Positions 23,829-41,306 of a stretch of 64,000 bases of DNA are shown piece by piece; the stretch's first letter is position 1; each line of letters opens with the position of its first letter. The notes under the pieces were generated by a model. That model saw only the letters and a program-made list of their open reading frames with translations. It searched no databases and had not been told where the DNA came from. Source of the stretch: Turicibacter sp. GTDB taxonomy: Bacteria; Bacillota_I; Bacilli_A; MOL361; Turicibacteraceae. The position numbers were made by a program, and so were the translations under genes. The stretch is taken from assembly GCA_009780245.1 (NCBI GenBank), contig WRAJ01000001.1, positions 1-64,000 of the forward strand. Reading direction: 5' to 3'.

Positions 23829-23861
23829 ATTCTATGGCAATAACTTACATGAAAACTGAAT

Positions 23862-24082
23862 AACTTGTTAGGTGCGGCTCCTAGGAGAACACAGGCTACT
23901 GCCCGGAAATATCGAGAGATGCCAATGGGTAGAGCAGCTGAGGTCGGGTTAAGGCTTCGGATAAGGTAGCTATTCGCATACGTGCGAAATTACGTCTTCT
24001 AGTGCTTAAGCTCAGACGAGGAGTATGTTGATCTATTTTTTGGCGGGTCTAAATTGGCGAGCCTAAAGAATAGACGTGTCAC
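23862..24082 (+). ncRNA. M-box (ykoK leader) magnesium riboswitch
   Basis: Conserved M-box segments appear in order: TTAGGTGCGGCTCCTAGGAG, AGGCTACTGCCCGGAAA, TCGAGAGATGCCAATGGGT and GAGCAGCTGAGG. It is followed directly by an intrinsic terminator and then by the magnesium channel gene mgtE. In Bacillus this RNA senses Mg2+ and terminates transcription when Mg2+ is plentiful. The core is complete, with no missing helix that I can see. Confidence 0.92.
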
Positions 24083-28663: not shown

Positions 28664-28762
28664 ACTGTAAATCTTTGAAAACGGCTTACTATAGTGAATT
28701 TTTCGTATAAACAGGCTAGGAATTCACTATAAACCTTTTAAAACGAGCTGTTATAGTGAATT
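28664..28762 (+). repeat. two hairpin units, ATTCACTATA word
   Basis: Unit 2 (28721-28762) is AATTCACTATAA, 18 nt, TTATAGTGAATT. Unit 1 (about 28664-28702) has a good right arm (TATAGTGAATTTTT) and a worn left arm (ACTGTAAA). The word and unit length match the five-unit array at 58184-58472, 30 kb away. Confidence 0.85.
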
Positions 28763-36047: not shown

Positions 36048-36938
36048 ATGAGCAAAAAATCAGGGCGGTTACTGCCCACAACGGCACTAGGGTTTGTCAA
36101 GGCATTCGCAACAGAGGGAAAAGAGCATCTACCATTAGCCTTCATTAATGACGTGCTAGTGAATGATGTAAAAAAATTTCGGAAGAAGGTGAAAAAGCTA
36201 AAAGTGGGAAATCCCTACAACATCATCGAAGTAAATAAATTGTCAGAAGAGGGCATATTGAAATACTTGATGAATACAGAGCTAGATTTATACTGTATCA
36301 CCGATGACGGTCAAAGTTTTTGCGCTGAGTTACAAAATCGCCGAGAGGAGTATTATGAGGAGAGAATATTCCACAACACCATCTTGAAATATCAAGCCAA
36401 TTATGCTAGAATATATGATACAAAGAGTGATGATGATTCGCAATCAAAATATGCGAGCCTAATGCCAACCGTATCACTGAACATTCTAGGGTACGATCAT
36501 TTCGACACATCCGAAGCCATTCACTTTTTCCGTCTTTACGACGTGATGAATCAAAAATATCCTTTAAAAGCAAATCGTTACATTGAAATATTTTTTGAAT
36601 TTAAAAAAGATGATGAAAGACTATCAACCAACCTAAAGCACTGGCAACACTTCTTCCAAACGGGAGAAGCATTACCAGAAGCACCAAATTATATAAAGGA
36701 GCTGTCAACTATGATGGAAATAGCAAACCTAACACAAGAGGAACGAAGAGTTTACGAGGCATCTCTGAATGCAAAGTATAAACGAATGAATCGCGAGATG
36801 TATGTTGAGAAGCGTGGTGAGAAGAAAAAAGCGATTGAAATGGCAAAAGCGGCTTTAGAAAATAAGTTACCAACCGATCTTATATCTAAACTCACTGGTC
36901 TGCCAACTAACGTCATTTCAAGTTTAGAAACAAACTGA
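36048..36938 (+). CDS. PD-(D/E)XK nuclease family transposase (Rpn-like)
   Basis: 296 residues. The N-terminal layout (LPTTALGFVKAFATEGKEHLPLAFINDVL) and the nuclease core ELDLYCITDDGQSFCAELQNR (Asp ... Glu-x-Gln) match the PDDEXK_2/Rpn family of recombination-promoting nucleases. The C-terminal third is a Lys/Glu-rich helix with 'ALENKLPTDLISKLTGLPTNVISSL', the usual small helical repeat end of these proteins. A degraded second copy lies directly downstream. The RBS (TTAAGGT) is weak. Confidence 0.85.
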   Translation: MSKKSGRLLPTTALGFVKAFATEGKEHLPLAFINDVLVNDVKKFRKKVKKLKVGNPYNIIEVNKLSEEGILKYLMNTELDLYCITDDGQSFCAELQNRREEYYEERIFHNTILKYQANYARIYDTKSDDDSQSKYASLMPTVSLNILGYDHFDTSEAIHFFRLYDVMNQKYPLKANRYIEIFFEFKKDDERLSTNLKHWQHFFQTGEALPEAPNYIKELSTMMEIANLTQEERRVYEASLNAKYKRMNREMYVEKRGEKKKAIEMAKAALENKLPTDLISKLTGLPTNVISSLETN

Positions 36939-37223: not shown

Positions 37224-38102
37224 ATGTATGAGATTTTAAAAGTAGAAAAATTGGCAGATAACACGTTGCTCATGGACGTCAAAGCACCGCGTGTGGCGAA
37301 ATATTGCGATCCTGGGCAGTTTCTGATCGTCAGATTGGATGAAAAAGGCGAGCGAATCCCGTTAACGATTTGTGATTACGACCGCGAAGCAGGCACGGTG
37401 ACGATTGTGTTCCAAGCGGTTGGGACTTCAACGAAAAAAATGCTTAGCTTAGGTGTCGGCGATGCGTTCAAAGACTTCGTAGGCCCGCTCGGGTGTGCGG
37501 CAGAATTTGTTAAGGAAGATGTGGACAACCTTAAAAACAAGAAGTTCTTATTTGTTGCTGGTGGCGTTGGATGCGCGCCCGTCTATCCACAAGTAAAATG
37601 GCTGCATGAACGAGGCATTCAGGCAGACGTGATCGTGGGAGCTAGAAATGCAGACATGCTAATTCTCGAAGAAGAAATGCAGTCGGTAGCGGGCAACCTC
37701 TATATCGCAACGGACGACGGTAGCGCGGGGCATCACGGGCTGGTAACCGATGTGATCAAAAAATTAGTCACGGTTGACGGTAAAGCGTACGACGAATGTA
37801 TCGCGATTGGTCCGATGATCATGATGAAATTTGTCGCGTTATTAACGAAAGAATTGGCAATACCGACGATCGTTAGTATGAATTCCATCATGGTGGACGG
37901 CACTGGGATGTGCGGAGCGTGTCGCTTGACGGTTGGCGATGAAATTAAATTTGCCTGCGTAGACGGGCCAGAATTCGACGGGCATTTGGTTGATTTTGAC
38001 GAAGCGATGAAGAGGCAACAAATGTACAAAGCGGACGAGACCAAAGCGATGCTGAAATTGAAAGAGAATCACGTTGGCGGCTGTTGCGGAGGTGACCAGT
38101 AA
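37224..38102 (+). CDS. nfnA: NfnA: NADH-dependent ferredoxin:NADP+ oxidoreductase, small subunit
   Basis: 292 residues. An FAD-binding ferredoxin-reductase-like barrel (PGQFLIVRL...RIPLTICDYD) is followed by an NAD-binding domain (FVAGGVGCAPVYPQV) and a C-terminal [2Fe-2S] loop (GTGMCGACRLTVG ... FACVDGPEFDGH), the order of the NfnA and PyrK-like family. With NfnB it couples NADH and reduced ferredoxin to NADP+ by flavin-based bifurcation. The C-terminal GGCCGGD is a cysteine-rich extension. The TAA and the nfnB ATG overlap by one base. Confidence 0.92.
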   Translation: MYEILKVEKLADNTLLMDVKAPRVAKYCDPGQFLIVRLDEKGERIPLTICDYDREAGTVTIVFQAVGTSTKKMLSLGVGDAFKDFVGPLGCAAEFVKEDVDNLKNKKFLFVAGGVGCAPVYPQVKWLHERGIQADVIVGARNADMLILEEEMQSVAGNLYIATDDGSAGHHGLVTDVIKKLVTVDGKAYDECIAIGPMIMMKFVALLTKELAIPTIVSMNSIMVDGTGMCGACRLTVGDEIKFACVDGPEFDGHLVDFDEAMKRQQMYKADETKAMLKLKENHVGGCCGGDQ

Positions 38103-39490
38103 TGAGTGTATTAAAAGCAATTCCTGTAAGAGAACAAGAAGGAAAAGTCCGAGCGACTAATTTTGAAGAAGTTTGTTTCGGATATAATTTAGAAGAAGCG
38201 ATGGCTGAGGCGGAGCGTTGCATTAACTGCCGCAATGCAAAATGTATCGCGGGTTGTCCGGTTGCGATTGATATTCCGGCGTTTATCACGGAAGTGAAAG
38301 AAGGGAACATCGAAGCGGCGTATCAGACGATTGCAAAGTCATCAGCACTACCGGCCATCTGTGGGCGCGTTTGTCCGCAAGAGACGCAATGCGAGGCGGT
38401 CTGTATTCGCGGGATTAAAGGGGATTCCGTTAATATCGGAAAGCTTGAGCGCTTCGTTGCAGATTGGGCTCTCGAGAATGATATTCAACCTGAAAAGGCT
38501 GAAACGTTGAATGGACGTAAAGTAGCGGTCGTCGGTTCAGGGCCAGCGGGACTTACCTGCGCGGGTGACTTGGCTAAAATGGGCTATGATGTAACGGTGT
38601 TCGAAGCTTTACACGAATTGGGTGGCGTCCTGGTGTACGGGATACCAGAATTCCGATTACCTAAGCAGGGGGTTGTCGCAAAAGAAATTGAAAAAGTTAG
38701 CGAGCTTGGCGTGAAGTTCGAAACGAACGTGGTGATTGGGAAGTCGATCACGATTGATCAGCTCATGGAAGACGAAGGTTTCGAAGCTGTGTTCATTGGC
38801 TCGGGGGCTGGTTTGCCGAAGTTTATGGGGATTCCTGGGGAGAACGCTAACGGTGTTTTCTCGGCGAACGAGTACTTGACGCGCAGTAATTTAATGCGAG
38901 CAATCAATGCTGATTCTGACACGCCTTTGATCACAGGTCGTAAAGTCGCCGTTGTCGGTGGCGGAAACGTAGCGATGGATGCCGCTCGTACGGCGCTGAG
39001 ATTAGGAGCCCAGACACATATTATATACAGAAGAAGCGAAGAGGAGCTTCCGGCACGCGTAGAAGAAGTACATCATGCCAAAGAGGAAGGCATTATTTTT
39101 GATGTGTTAACCAATCCGACCGAGATTCTCGTAAATGACGAGGGTTGGGTGCGCGGAATCCGCTGCGTGAGAATGGAACTTGGAGAGCCGGATGATTCAG
39201 GGCGTCGTCGTCCAGTCGTGGTAGAGGGTTCTGAATTCGATATCGAGGTGGATACCGTGATCATGTCGCTGGGAACATCGCCGAACCCACTGATTGCTTC
39301 AACGACGGAAGGCCTTGAAGTGAATCGTTGGGAATGTATCGTGGCTAGTGAGGAAGCGGGGCAGACGAGCAAAGAAGGCGTCTTTGCCGGCGGGGATGCG
39401 GTAAGCGGAGCGGCAACAGTAATTCTAGCGATGGAAGCGGGGCGCGTTGCAGCGAAGGGGATCGACGAGTACTTAAAGAAAAAAGTATAA
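38102..39490 (+). CDS. nfnB: NfnB: NADH-dependent ferredoxin:NADP+ oxidoreductase, large subunit
   Basis: 462 residues of the glutamate-synthase small-subunit family. Two N-terminal Cys clusters (CINCRNAKCIAGCPV and CGRVCPQETQCEAVC) bind two [4Fe-4S]; then two Rossmann folds for FAD (VAVVGSGPAGLTCAGDLA) and NADPH (VAVVGGGNVAMDAARTA), ending FAGGDAVSGAATVILAMEAGR. No glutamate synthase large subunit is nearby and nfnA is directly upstream, so this is NfnB rather than GltD. The complex points to ferredoxin-based fermentation and supplies NADPH. A terminator follows. Confidence 0.92.
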   Translation: MSVLKAIPVREQEGKVRATNFEEVCFGYNLEEAMAEAERCINCRNAKCIAGCPVAIDIPAFITEVKEGNIEAAYQTIAKSSALPAICGRVCPQETQCEAVCIRGIKGDSVNIGKLERFVADWALENDIQPEKAETLNGRKVAVVGSGPAGLTCAGDLAKMGYDVTVFEALHELGGVLVYGIPEFRLPKQGVVAKEIEKVSELGVKFETNVVIGKSITIDQLMEDEGFEAVFIGSGAGLPKFMGIPGENANGVFSANEYLTRSNLMRAINADSDTPLITGRKVAVVGGGNVAMDAARTALRLGAQTHIIYRRSEEELPARVEEVHHAKEEGIIFDVLTNPTEILVNDEGWVRGIRCVRMELGEPDDSGRRRPVVVEGSEFDIEVDTVIMSLGTSPNPLIASTTEGLEVNRWECIVASEEAGQTSKEGVFAGGDAVSGAATVILAMEAGRVAAKGIDEYLKKKV

Positions 39491-39495
39491 GCAGA

Positions 39496-39524
39496 AAATC
39501 CAGACTTCGGTTTGGATTTTTTTT
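39496..39524 (+). terminator. terminator of nfnAB
   Basis: AAATCCAGAC TTCG GTTTGGATTT hairpin with a UUCG-type loop and eight T. Confidence 0.88.
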
Positions 39525-39533
39525 GCGTGCGAA

Positions 39534-39690
39534 TTTCCCTAGAAGGGCGCTGTGGCGTGGCATCTAGGGAAAATTTCCCTAGAAGGGTGCTGTAACGTGG
39601 TATCTAGGGAAAAATTTCCCTAGACGAGCCTTATATCTTGCCATCTAGGGAAAAAGATGCCTAGATGTTTACCATAGTTTCAAATCTAGG
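39534..39690 (+). repeat. hairpin array, TTTCCCTAGA word (gap 39491-39932)
   Basis: Three 39-nt units at 39534-39572, 39574-39612 and 39615-39653, each TTTCCCTAGA - 19 nt - TCTAGGGAAA with perfect 10-bp arms, plus a worn fourth unit (CCTAGAT ... ATCTAGG, 39660-39690). Units are separated by only 1-6 nt. The loops of units 1 and 2 are close (AGGG[C/T]GCTGT...CGTGG); that of unit 3 differs. The array lies between the nfnB terminator and the next promoter. Confidence 0.9.
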
Positions 39691-39800
39691 GAATTTGTCC
39701 TGAAAACATTCTTGTGAAGTCGTTTCACAATTGAAAGCAGAGGTTCACAAATGTAAGCGGAGTGAAAGCGAAAAAATACAAAAATTTCTCAAAAAAATAC

Positions 39801-39829
39801 TTGCATAACAAATTTCAGTGTGATATTAT
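39801..39829 (+). promoter_or_regulatory. promoter of the oligosaccharide ABC operon
   Basis: TTGCAT (39801) - 17 nt - TATTAT (39824-39829), 104 nt before the binding-protein ATG. Confidence 0.7.
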
Positions 39830-39843
39830 ACACCTAAGCTCTT

Positions 39844-39870
39844 ATTGCGAACGACGTTCGTAATTACGAA
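39844..39870 (+). promoter_or_regulatory. overlapping operator palindromes
   Basis: Two palindromes share an arm: ATTGCGAAC GAC GTTCGTAAT (39844-39864) and TTCGTAATTACGAA (39857-39870). They lie just after the expected transcription start of the ABC operon, where repressors of the LacI or GntR type bind. The regulator is unknown; the IclR gene at 53130 is one candidate. Confidence 0.55.
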
Positions 39871-39932: not shown

Positions 39933-41306
39933 ATGAAAAAGAACAAACTATGGTTATTGGTTGCAACTTTCGCTGCTGCTTTCTTATTTTTAGCGGCTTG
40001 TGGAGACAGTGACGATAATGGCGCTGATGACTACGACAACGGTGACGACACGACAGCTGACGAAGTTGAAGATAACGAAGATGCTGGCGAGTTAGAAGGA
40101 ACGATCACAGTTAGCTGGTGGGGTAACGAAGGACGTCACGATGCGACAAACGAAGTCATCGATTTATTCGTATCTGAAAACCCAGGTGTTACCATTAACC
40201 CACACTACGGTGCTTGGGACGGATGGCAAACGGCTTTCGCTGGTGATTTAGAAGCTGGACAAGAAGCTGACTTAATGCAAGTTAACTTTAACTGGTTACA
40301 ATTATACTCACCATTCGGAACGACGTTCGCTGATTTAGAAGACCCAGCAATTGCTGCGCATTTAGACTTAAGCAACTGGGATTCTCAATACATTGATGTA
40401 ACACGCCAAAGCGGTGTTGTTCAAGGTGTACCAGTTGGGATGACGGCGCGTGTACCGTTTATGCGTGCTGATATTTATGAAGCAGCTGGCTTAGACGTTC
40501 AGGACATCAACACGTGGGACGATTTAATTGCTGCAGGTAATGCGATTCAAGAACACCACGGCGATAGCGTATTTGCTTTATCACCATTAGGACCACAGTC
40601 AATGGCTTACATGGTATTCTCTTGGTTAGAGCAATACACAGGTCGTTCGTTTGTAGATGCAGATGGTCAGCTTAACTATTCATTAGAAGAGTTAACAGAT
40701 GGATTCCAATTGATTCAAGATTTCATCGATAACGGTGTTATGCCAGATGGTGCGTTTGACTCAGACCCAATTAACGCTGAAAACCCAATGTGGATTGAAG
40801 GTGCATACGGTGGTGTAAGTGAGTGGGATTCATCAATCAATGCATGGATCAACAACTTAGGTGAAGGTGGAGAAGACCTAGTTGAAATTCGTCCTCATTT
40901 CACAATGGACGGTGCGCAACTAAGCGGTTGGATGTCTAGACCTTCAATGGTATTCTCAATTTCTAATAACTCTGATTACCCAGAAGTTGCTGCAGCATTC
41001 TTAAACTTTATGTTAACGGATGAAAGAGCAATTGAAATCATGGGAACTGACCGTGGTGTGCCATTAAACACAGTTGGACGTGCATACTTCGATGCATTAG
41101 GATTAGGTGGACACGTTGTCGCTGCAAATGCGATCCACGCAGAAGCTGAAACAACAACAATGAATGCAATCTTCGAATTCCCAGAAGTACGTGAAGTTTA
41201 CGAAAGCCAATTAATGGAAATCTTTAACGGAACGAGCACGGTTGAAGCAGCAGCTGAATTTGTTTATAACAACATTCAAGCAGTCATTGATAGCTTATTA
41301 GATTAG
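39933..41306 (+). CDS. sugar ABC transporter substrate-binding lipoprotein (family 1)
   Basis: 457 residues. Lipoprotein signal with LAACG (Cys23), then an acidic 30-residue linker (Asp/Asn/Glu/Gly), then a family 1 oligosaccharide-binding fold starting ITVSWWGNEGRHDATNEVIDLF. The matched permeases follow, and GH105 and GH28 genes lie in the same cluster, so oligogalacturonides or rhamnogalacturonides are the likely cargo. A strong hairpin after the stop should let more of this protein be made than of the permeases. RBS GGGAGG. Confidence 0.9.
   Translation: MKKNKLWLLVATFAAAFLFLAACGDSDDNGADDYDNGDDTTADEVEDNEDAGELEGTITVSWWGNEGRHDATNEVIDLFVSENPGVTINPHYGAWDGWQTAFAGDLEAGQEADLMQVNFNWLQLYSPFGTTFADLEDPAIAAHLDLSNWDSQYIDVTRQSGVVQGVPVGMTARVPFMRADIYEAAGLDVQDINTWDDLIAAGNAIQEHHGDSVFALSPLGPQSMAYMVFSWLEQYTGRSFVDADGQLNYSLEELTDGFQLIQDFIDNGVMPDGAFDSDPINAENPMWIEGAYGGVSEWDSSINAWINNLGEGGEDLVEIRPHFTMDGAQLSGWMSRPSMVFSISNNSDYPEVAAAFLNFMLTDERAIEIMGTDRGVPLNTVGRAYFDALGLGGHVVAANAIHAEAETTTMNAIFEFPEVREVYESQLMEIFNGTSTVEAAAEFVYNNIQAVIDSLLD

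Follow-up and report, generated by a model that had tools for sequence, protein, structure and literature searches.

The window analysed here, a stretch of 64,000 nucleotides from a Turicibacter sp. assembly (GCA_009780245.1, contig WRAJ01000001.1, positions 1 to 64,000 of the forward strand), carries a short tandem array of hairpin-forming units between two plus-strand genes. The upstream gene (38102..39490, +) is of the NfnB/glutamate synthase small-subunit type; its ORF matched TIGR01316 ("gltA, NADPH-dependent glutamate synthase") above cut-off, which is consistent with an NfnB-type subunit. A possible U-tract hairpin, read by eye as the terminator of this gene, lies at 39498..39527 (+), where the consensus scan reported no terminator. 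Downstream of the array lies a gene for a lipoprotein of the ABC substrate-binding type (39933..41306, +), for which no NCBIfam match was found, and two further downstream ORFs gave sub-cut-off matches to ABC sugar permeases. The control region of this importer, as judged by eye, contains a promoter-like TTGCAT-17-TATTAT sequence (39801..39829, +), which has a counterpart in the same-genus genome and at which the consensus scan reported no promoter, and an imperfect palindrome, ATTGCGAACGACGTTCGTAAT (39844..39864, no strand assigned), which is conserved in the same-genus genome and is likely the importer operator.

Re-reading of the sequence at 39534-39694 bore out three units, each with a 19-nt loop between perfect 10-bp arms, located at 39534..39572, 39574..39612 and 39615..39653 (no strand assigned), all of the form TTTCCCTAGA-N19-TCTAGGGAAA and separated by linkers of 1 and 2 nt, and a worn fourth unit (39656..39694, no strand assigned) mismatched at 4 of 16 arm positions, three in the left arm and one in the right. 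The sequence-only reading had placed the array at 39534-39690; its start was correct, but its end falls short, because the worn fourth unit runs to 39694. The loop drift claimed there was also confirmed, the loops of units 1 and 2 being near-identical and that of unit 3 diverged, with identical arms in all three. Because the strict 10-bp-arm pattern matched three times in the 2.1-Mb genome to which the window belongs (hereafter the own genome), each time in the window array, with no match for the control, the array is not a product of chance. This exact form had no match outside the window array among the 40 genomes searched, the own one included. A scan for tandem pairs of 6-nt arms of any sequence at a period of 40-43 found four arrays in 515 kb of own sequence, the window included, whereas neither Markov shuffles nor 400 kb from the same-genus genome gave any. 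With 7-nt arms, such a scan of a fresh 395 kb of own sequence returned two arrays, L139:10250 being probably chance, and a loose scan for pairing only, which returned two arrays in own sequence and four chance-like ones in the same-genus sample, showed no excess over the same genus.

The window array belongs to a dispersed family, which the sequence-only reading had missed, as it had the MITE-borne copies described below. The core TTTCCCTA-N23/24-TAGGGAAA was found in at least 26 intergenic arrays of the own genome, comprising 75 units (the window's fourth unit, with its four mismatches, included), with three units in 19 of the 26 arrays, two in five and four in two. When up to two mismatches were allowed, TTTCCCTA-N23-TAGGGAAA gave 51 forward matches in the own genome compared to 1 in the reversed-pattern control; in seven family relatives the unit pattern gave 0-4 matches compared to 2-12 in the controls. 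A covariance-model search, in which 150 of 486 own-genome candidates were scored and whose counts are thus lower bounds, gave at least 144 strand hits there compared to a single weak one in the same-genus genome, and three further arrays, of 40-nt units, were reached through it. The start-to-start distance between neighboring units was 41 nt in 30 of 43 cases, 42 nt in 11 and 40 nt in two, with the three late arrays of 40-nt units left out, and the linkers were mostly 2 nt long. No ORF of 90 aa or more spanned any of the 26 arrays, and some arrays sit in short gaps between codirectional genes, where they are probably co-transcribed. Two arrays ~85 nt apart at L073 were entered separately, and ten scan rows with five arm mismatches, nine of which resemble flanking sequence, were left out, although one of the ten, L077:4853, may be a worn unit. 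An apparent absence of arrays from the large contigs C2-C7 was weakened by the 40-nt-unit arrays on C5 and C7. Adjacency to terminators, frequent by eye, is not claimed here, a strict terminator lying within 70 nt at 3 of the 18 arrays that lack the terminal repeats (TIRs) described below.

Comparison of arms and loops across the family pointed to conservation of sequence and not merely of pairing. Between arrays of the TIR-less class, arms were 93% identical and loops 58%, with shuffled loops at 53% (figures covering 15 of the 18 arrays and 45 of the 54 units), and the loops of these copies are near-random. Between the eight arrays of the other class, the corresponding values were 95% and 76%. 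Loops within an array were 64% alike (null 49%) compared to 58% between arrays (null 53%). Since the arms had served as search bait for most arrays, so that some of their conservation is ascertainment, the comparison was repeated on six elements found via a leader sequence outside the arms, itself taken from arm-found elements; mismatches numbered 7 of 256 positions to the consensus arms and 60 of 368 in the loops, a difference whose p of 1e-8 overstates the certainty because units within an element are non-independent. In an alignment made up of 39-nt units, 37 out of the 66 identified by that stage, and therefore biased to well-kept copies, 15 arm cells were changed, of which 11 broke the pair, three gave G-U and one was compensated, and the loop pairs tested showed no covariation beyond shuffles. 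Arm changes being mostly uncompensated, it is therefore the sequence, and not merely the pairing, that is kept. Position 9 of the half-site was never A in the 54 TIR-less units, though mostly unpaired, and was A in 1 of 21 units of the TIR-bearing class; at position 10 of the TIR-less units A or T was preferred. The kept feature, as far as these alignments indicate, appears to be the half-site sequence TTTCCCTABW together with a spacing. The sequence-only reading had proposed that the arms were under selection or recently homogenised; the within-genome comparison of arrays supports selection and argues against homogenisation, as one arm sequence occurs in 26 arrays with diverged loops, and loops as conserved as arms were not seen among the own-genome arrays.

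Three arrays outside the 26 (L080:7340, C11:9029 and C12:26904) have arms that are altered yet complementary. The first of these (L080:7340-7418, at about 71340 of own contig C1) consists of two units whose arms read TGATCATAGA...TCTATGATAA and whose loop is similar to that of window unit 3; by eye, a TATAAT-like box directly precedes the array, and a lipoprotein-like ORF lies downstream.

A minority of arrays is carried by elements with the features of a MITE. The TIR TAGGCAATTGCGAAA was present at both ends, with no more than three mismatches each, in 5 of the 26 arrays; a sixth had the leader end only, and two more were assigned to the TIR class by decayed flanks, read by eye, or by loop similarity only. 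These elements measured 128 nt with two units and 168-169 nt with three, a difference of one ~41-nt module, and occurred in both orientations relative to genes. Flanking 9-mers matched at 8 or more of 9 positions in 11 of 19 TIR elements compared to 0.6% of mismatched pairs, with a boundary slack of 0-3 nt on each side in test and null alike; the 19 comprise 18 of 21 TIR-pair rows (three overlapping longer or shifted pairings being left out) and L142. The duplications are ~9-10 bp long and were present in four of the five array elements with both TIRs. At the 18 TIR-less arrays, the window's included, no target-site duplication was detected (0/18), TIR remnants scored as in shuffled sequence (mean 4.14 vs 4.04, with 552 of 2000 shuffles as high), and no common flanks rose above shuffles. 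The TIR-bearing copies have the ends and duplications expected of MITEs, and the window array by itself does not. Among TIR hits with up to two mismatches, one pair lay ~1.1 kb apart (C32:20515-21592); reading of the ORFs in this interval and around the unpaired TIRs at L101, L113 and L115 revealed no transposase-like ORF, and no parent transposase, at these places of the own genome, which is 76% complete.

The same TIR also encloses six other interiors, and MITE-like elements with TIR TAGGCAATTGCGAAA and unrelated palindromic or tandem interiors were noted at L097, L099, L104, L106, L108, L110, L112, L118 and L122. A second array family, TGCACC...GGTGCA, comprised 34 exact units at 13 places in the own genome, with three units at 40-42-nt spacing at 10 of the 13. 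In the seven places checked for ends, four arrays had both TIRs with no more than three mismatches, a fifth had TIRs with four and two mismatches, and two had one unrecognisable end. By eye, TGCACC units of the same rank in different arrays are alike, as if whole triplets had spread. The window itself holds a different hairpin unit at 28690-28761, TTCACTATAA...TTATAGTGAA, which the unit model matched weakly (16.8 bits); an additional half arm lies 61 nt upstream of it. A further hairpin, CCCTAGAGAGTAGAC...GTCTACCTTCTAGGG, has 15-bp arms and 3-5 near-identical copies per genome in three family genomes (L004, L005 and L006); in L005 and L006, where its surroundings were read, the hairpin is followed by an ORF that begins MSKKLFTPQEIEQ or similar and that we presume to be transposase-like. 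The hairpin was set aside as a different element.

Against 28 forward matches in the own genome, the tandem pattern had none in the 394 other genomes searched from the class, of which seven belong to the family. Two patterns, the tandem one among them, had no match in viral contigs; phage records gave no match to the window array, nor did plasmid records to the one TIR element compared with them; a single-unit match to a cyanobacterium in the contig database was taken as chance. The TIR looks lineage-specific too: when up to one mismatch was allowed, it matched six times in 395 kb of own sequence and not at all in 400 kb from the same-genus genome. An array is flanked in the own genome by a transketolase-transaldolase pair (L064), and the same-genus genome keeps this pair and a spacer of similar length without an array of the family. 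That spacer could not be taken as a plain empty site, since it contains an inverted repeat of its own (L149:12391-12512; GTCTTCGGTAAATAGGC / GCCTATTTACCAAACAC, 17-nt arms at 88% complementarity), which may be a small mobile element of another kind. Among the open-licence papers listed in literature searches, none was seen to describe the present repeats, and in a search by motif letters all titles among the matches listed were unrelated.

What calls for explanation is a dispersed family with a fixed period, conserved arm sequence, near-random loops in its TIR-less copies and MITE-like carriage of some members. The reading we favor, with a confidence that is about even, is that the arrays are lineage-specific, carried by MITEs and made of helically phased half-sites that a putative protein recognises. 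Each unit consists of two half-sites, 5'-TTTCCCTABW-3', in inverted orientation, with 31-32 bp between their starts, and units arranged head to tail repeat the pattern every 41-42 bp, or about four helical turns. With this period, kept although the loops have lost similarity, the half-sites fall on about one face of the helix, where a sequence-specific DNA-binding protein of the lineage could recognise them in double-stranded form; recognition by a protein is favored because the period is kept and the sequence is conserved mostly without compensation. The arms would be kept because this candidate protein recognises them, and the arrays would have spread as MITE cargo. The TIR-less copies, that of the window among them, may be older ones in which only the recognised half-sites were maintained after the ends decayed; against such a descent, the 18 arrays show neither target-site duplications nor TIR remnants. 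Effects on neighboring genes, such as mRNA stability or insulation, would be secondary. The three arrays with changed but complementary arms are not predicted by a purely sequence-specific reading, and tandem duplication could likewise have handed down a constant period. A bolder version, which we regard as doubtful, is that one MITE chassis spreads several phased half-site arrays (TTTCCCTA, TGCACC and others) for lineage-specific nucleoid or regulatory proteins, with selection retaining the sites alone once the ends have decayed; if true, it would amount to transposon-driven wiring of a chromosome-wide binding network.

The main rival, possible though clearly less probable than protein recognition, is a purely selfish repeat whose arms serve transposition only, being bound by a transposase or accessory factor like subterminal repeats, with no function for the host. 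The absence of the tandem pattern from the 394 other genomes of the class fits such an element, as do the freedom of all 26 arrays from spanning ORFs of 90 aa or more, the unrelated neighboring genes, the TIRs and target-site duplications on some copies and the occurrence of one TIR around different interiors; in the account by Croucher et al. (PMC3049150), the pneumococcal BOX, RUP and SPRITE repeats are likewise argued to be parasitic. Against it, 18 of the 26 arrays lack TIRs and target-site duplications yet keep their arms, with loops near random, whereas decayed, immobile copies should lose both alike.

An RNA-level element, in which a transcribed hairpin rod would stabilise, attenuate or terminate transcripts or be processed, appears improbable. 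Strong predicted folding (RNA z-scores of -7.2 for the window array and -8.6), the probable co-transcription of arrays in short codirectional gaps and the altered yet complementary arms at L080:7340 speak for it, but loop pairs did not covary, arm changes were mostly uncompensated, TIR-bearing elements occur in both orientations relative to genes, and hairpins do not need a fixed period of 41-42. No Rfam 15 match at gathering score covered the window array, and nine further loci, six of them with arrays of this family, yielded two tRNAs in L075 and nothing else.

Still less probable is that the arrays arose by neutral tandem duplication and were homogenised locally by template switching. The greater likeness of loops within arrays than between them (64%, null 49%, compared to 58%, null 53%) would be expected from such a process, and palindromic arms can correct one another, but the presence of one arm sequence in 26 separate arrays with loops near background goes beyond local homogenisation. 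That the window array, which lies ~110 bp upstream of the promoter-like sequence of the adjacent sugar importer, serves this importer as an operator or regulatory array is very improbable and was rejected. The importer binding protein is 64% identical to its same-genus orthologue, and by eye the same-genus importer retains the promoter-like sequence and a palindrome, TTGCGAAYGACGTTCGTAA, with no hairpin array seen upstream; the window array thus appears not to be part of the importer's conserved control region. Moreover, the same units adjoin unrelated genes, among them ones that we take, from reading translations, to be rplT, groEL, secA and purL. A CRISPR-like array of 18-nt palindromic repeats and 23-nt spacers, suggested by the short palindrome TAGGGAAA-NN-TTTCCCTA between variable stretches, can be dismissed, as the arrays end in half-repeats rather than full ones, comprise 2-4 units at 26 places and often have similar neighboring loops rather than unrelated spacers.

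Among known systems, the family is best read as a MITE-borne kind nearest to the described "minisatellite inside a MITE". BrickBuilt and MITE464/PgRS of Porphyromonas gingivalis are described as intergenic, species-restricted MITEs enclosing a minisatellite; the two types have nearly the same TIRs and enclose unrelated tandem repeats, of which one is 41 nt long, and some copies lack leader, tail or both (PMC4596501). Near-identical ends around unrelated tandem repeats, and copies without ends, are thus common to both systems. The P. gingivalis repeats are direct, with 23-nt ones reaching 22.8 copies, whereas those described here are inverted half-site pairs in 2-4 copies and several arm families; a pattern of conserved arms and drifting loops is not reported in the passages of that article describing the elements, the two systems being compared by description only (PMC4596501). 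The BOX elements of Streptococcus pneumoniae, according to the description in PMC3049150, similarly combine modular ends, a repeatable internal module, TIRs and target-site duplications with lineage restriction and a strong predicted fold. Fixed ends around a repeatable module are also seen in the TIR elements here, a likeness of layout; unlike BOX as described there (PMC3049150), the present arrays are built from palindromic half-site pairs whose arms stay constant, one kind of TIR surrounds several unrelated modules, and most arrays lack ends. REP/BIME and REPIN sequences, as outlined in PMC3733652 and PMC3116915, resemble the arrays in being extragenic inverted palindromes, with REP doublets around a spacer, dispersed and sometimes tandem. 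Membership in the REP/REPIN class was rejected, as no RAYT-type Y1 transposase (PF01797) was matched in the own genome (76% complete) or the same-genus genome, with the control positive in 5 of 14, and no GTAG or CGTC tag was seen by eye at unit ends in flanks and linkers. The SIRC elements of Arabidopsis are presented as short repeats broken by diverse sequence, proposed to be born inside MITEs and to persist after TIR loss, which is the scenario suggested here; they differ in being direct repeats of a plant nuclear genome, not phased inverted half-sites (PMC10342631). Minisatellite-bearing MITEs have been described in bacteria before; on the question of what maintains them, the present family has a built-in comparison of constant arms with drifting loops, both in copies that have transposon ends and in copies that lack them. 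At least two arm families share the same three-unit, 41-bp layout, so that recognition of the repeats, and their retention by the host after transposon death, become directly testable.

Elsewhere in the window, an ORF at 36048-36938 (+) matched the Rpn family of recombination-promoting nucleases below cut-off, and the sole Rfam 15 match was an M-box (ykoK leader) magnesium riboswitch at 23857-24031 (+), scoring 133.9 bits.
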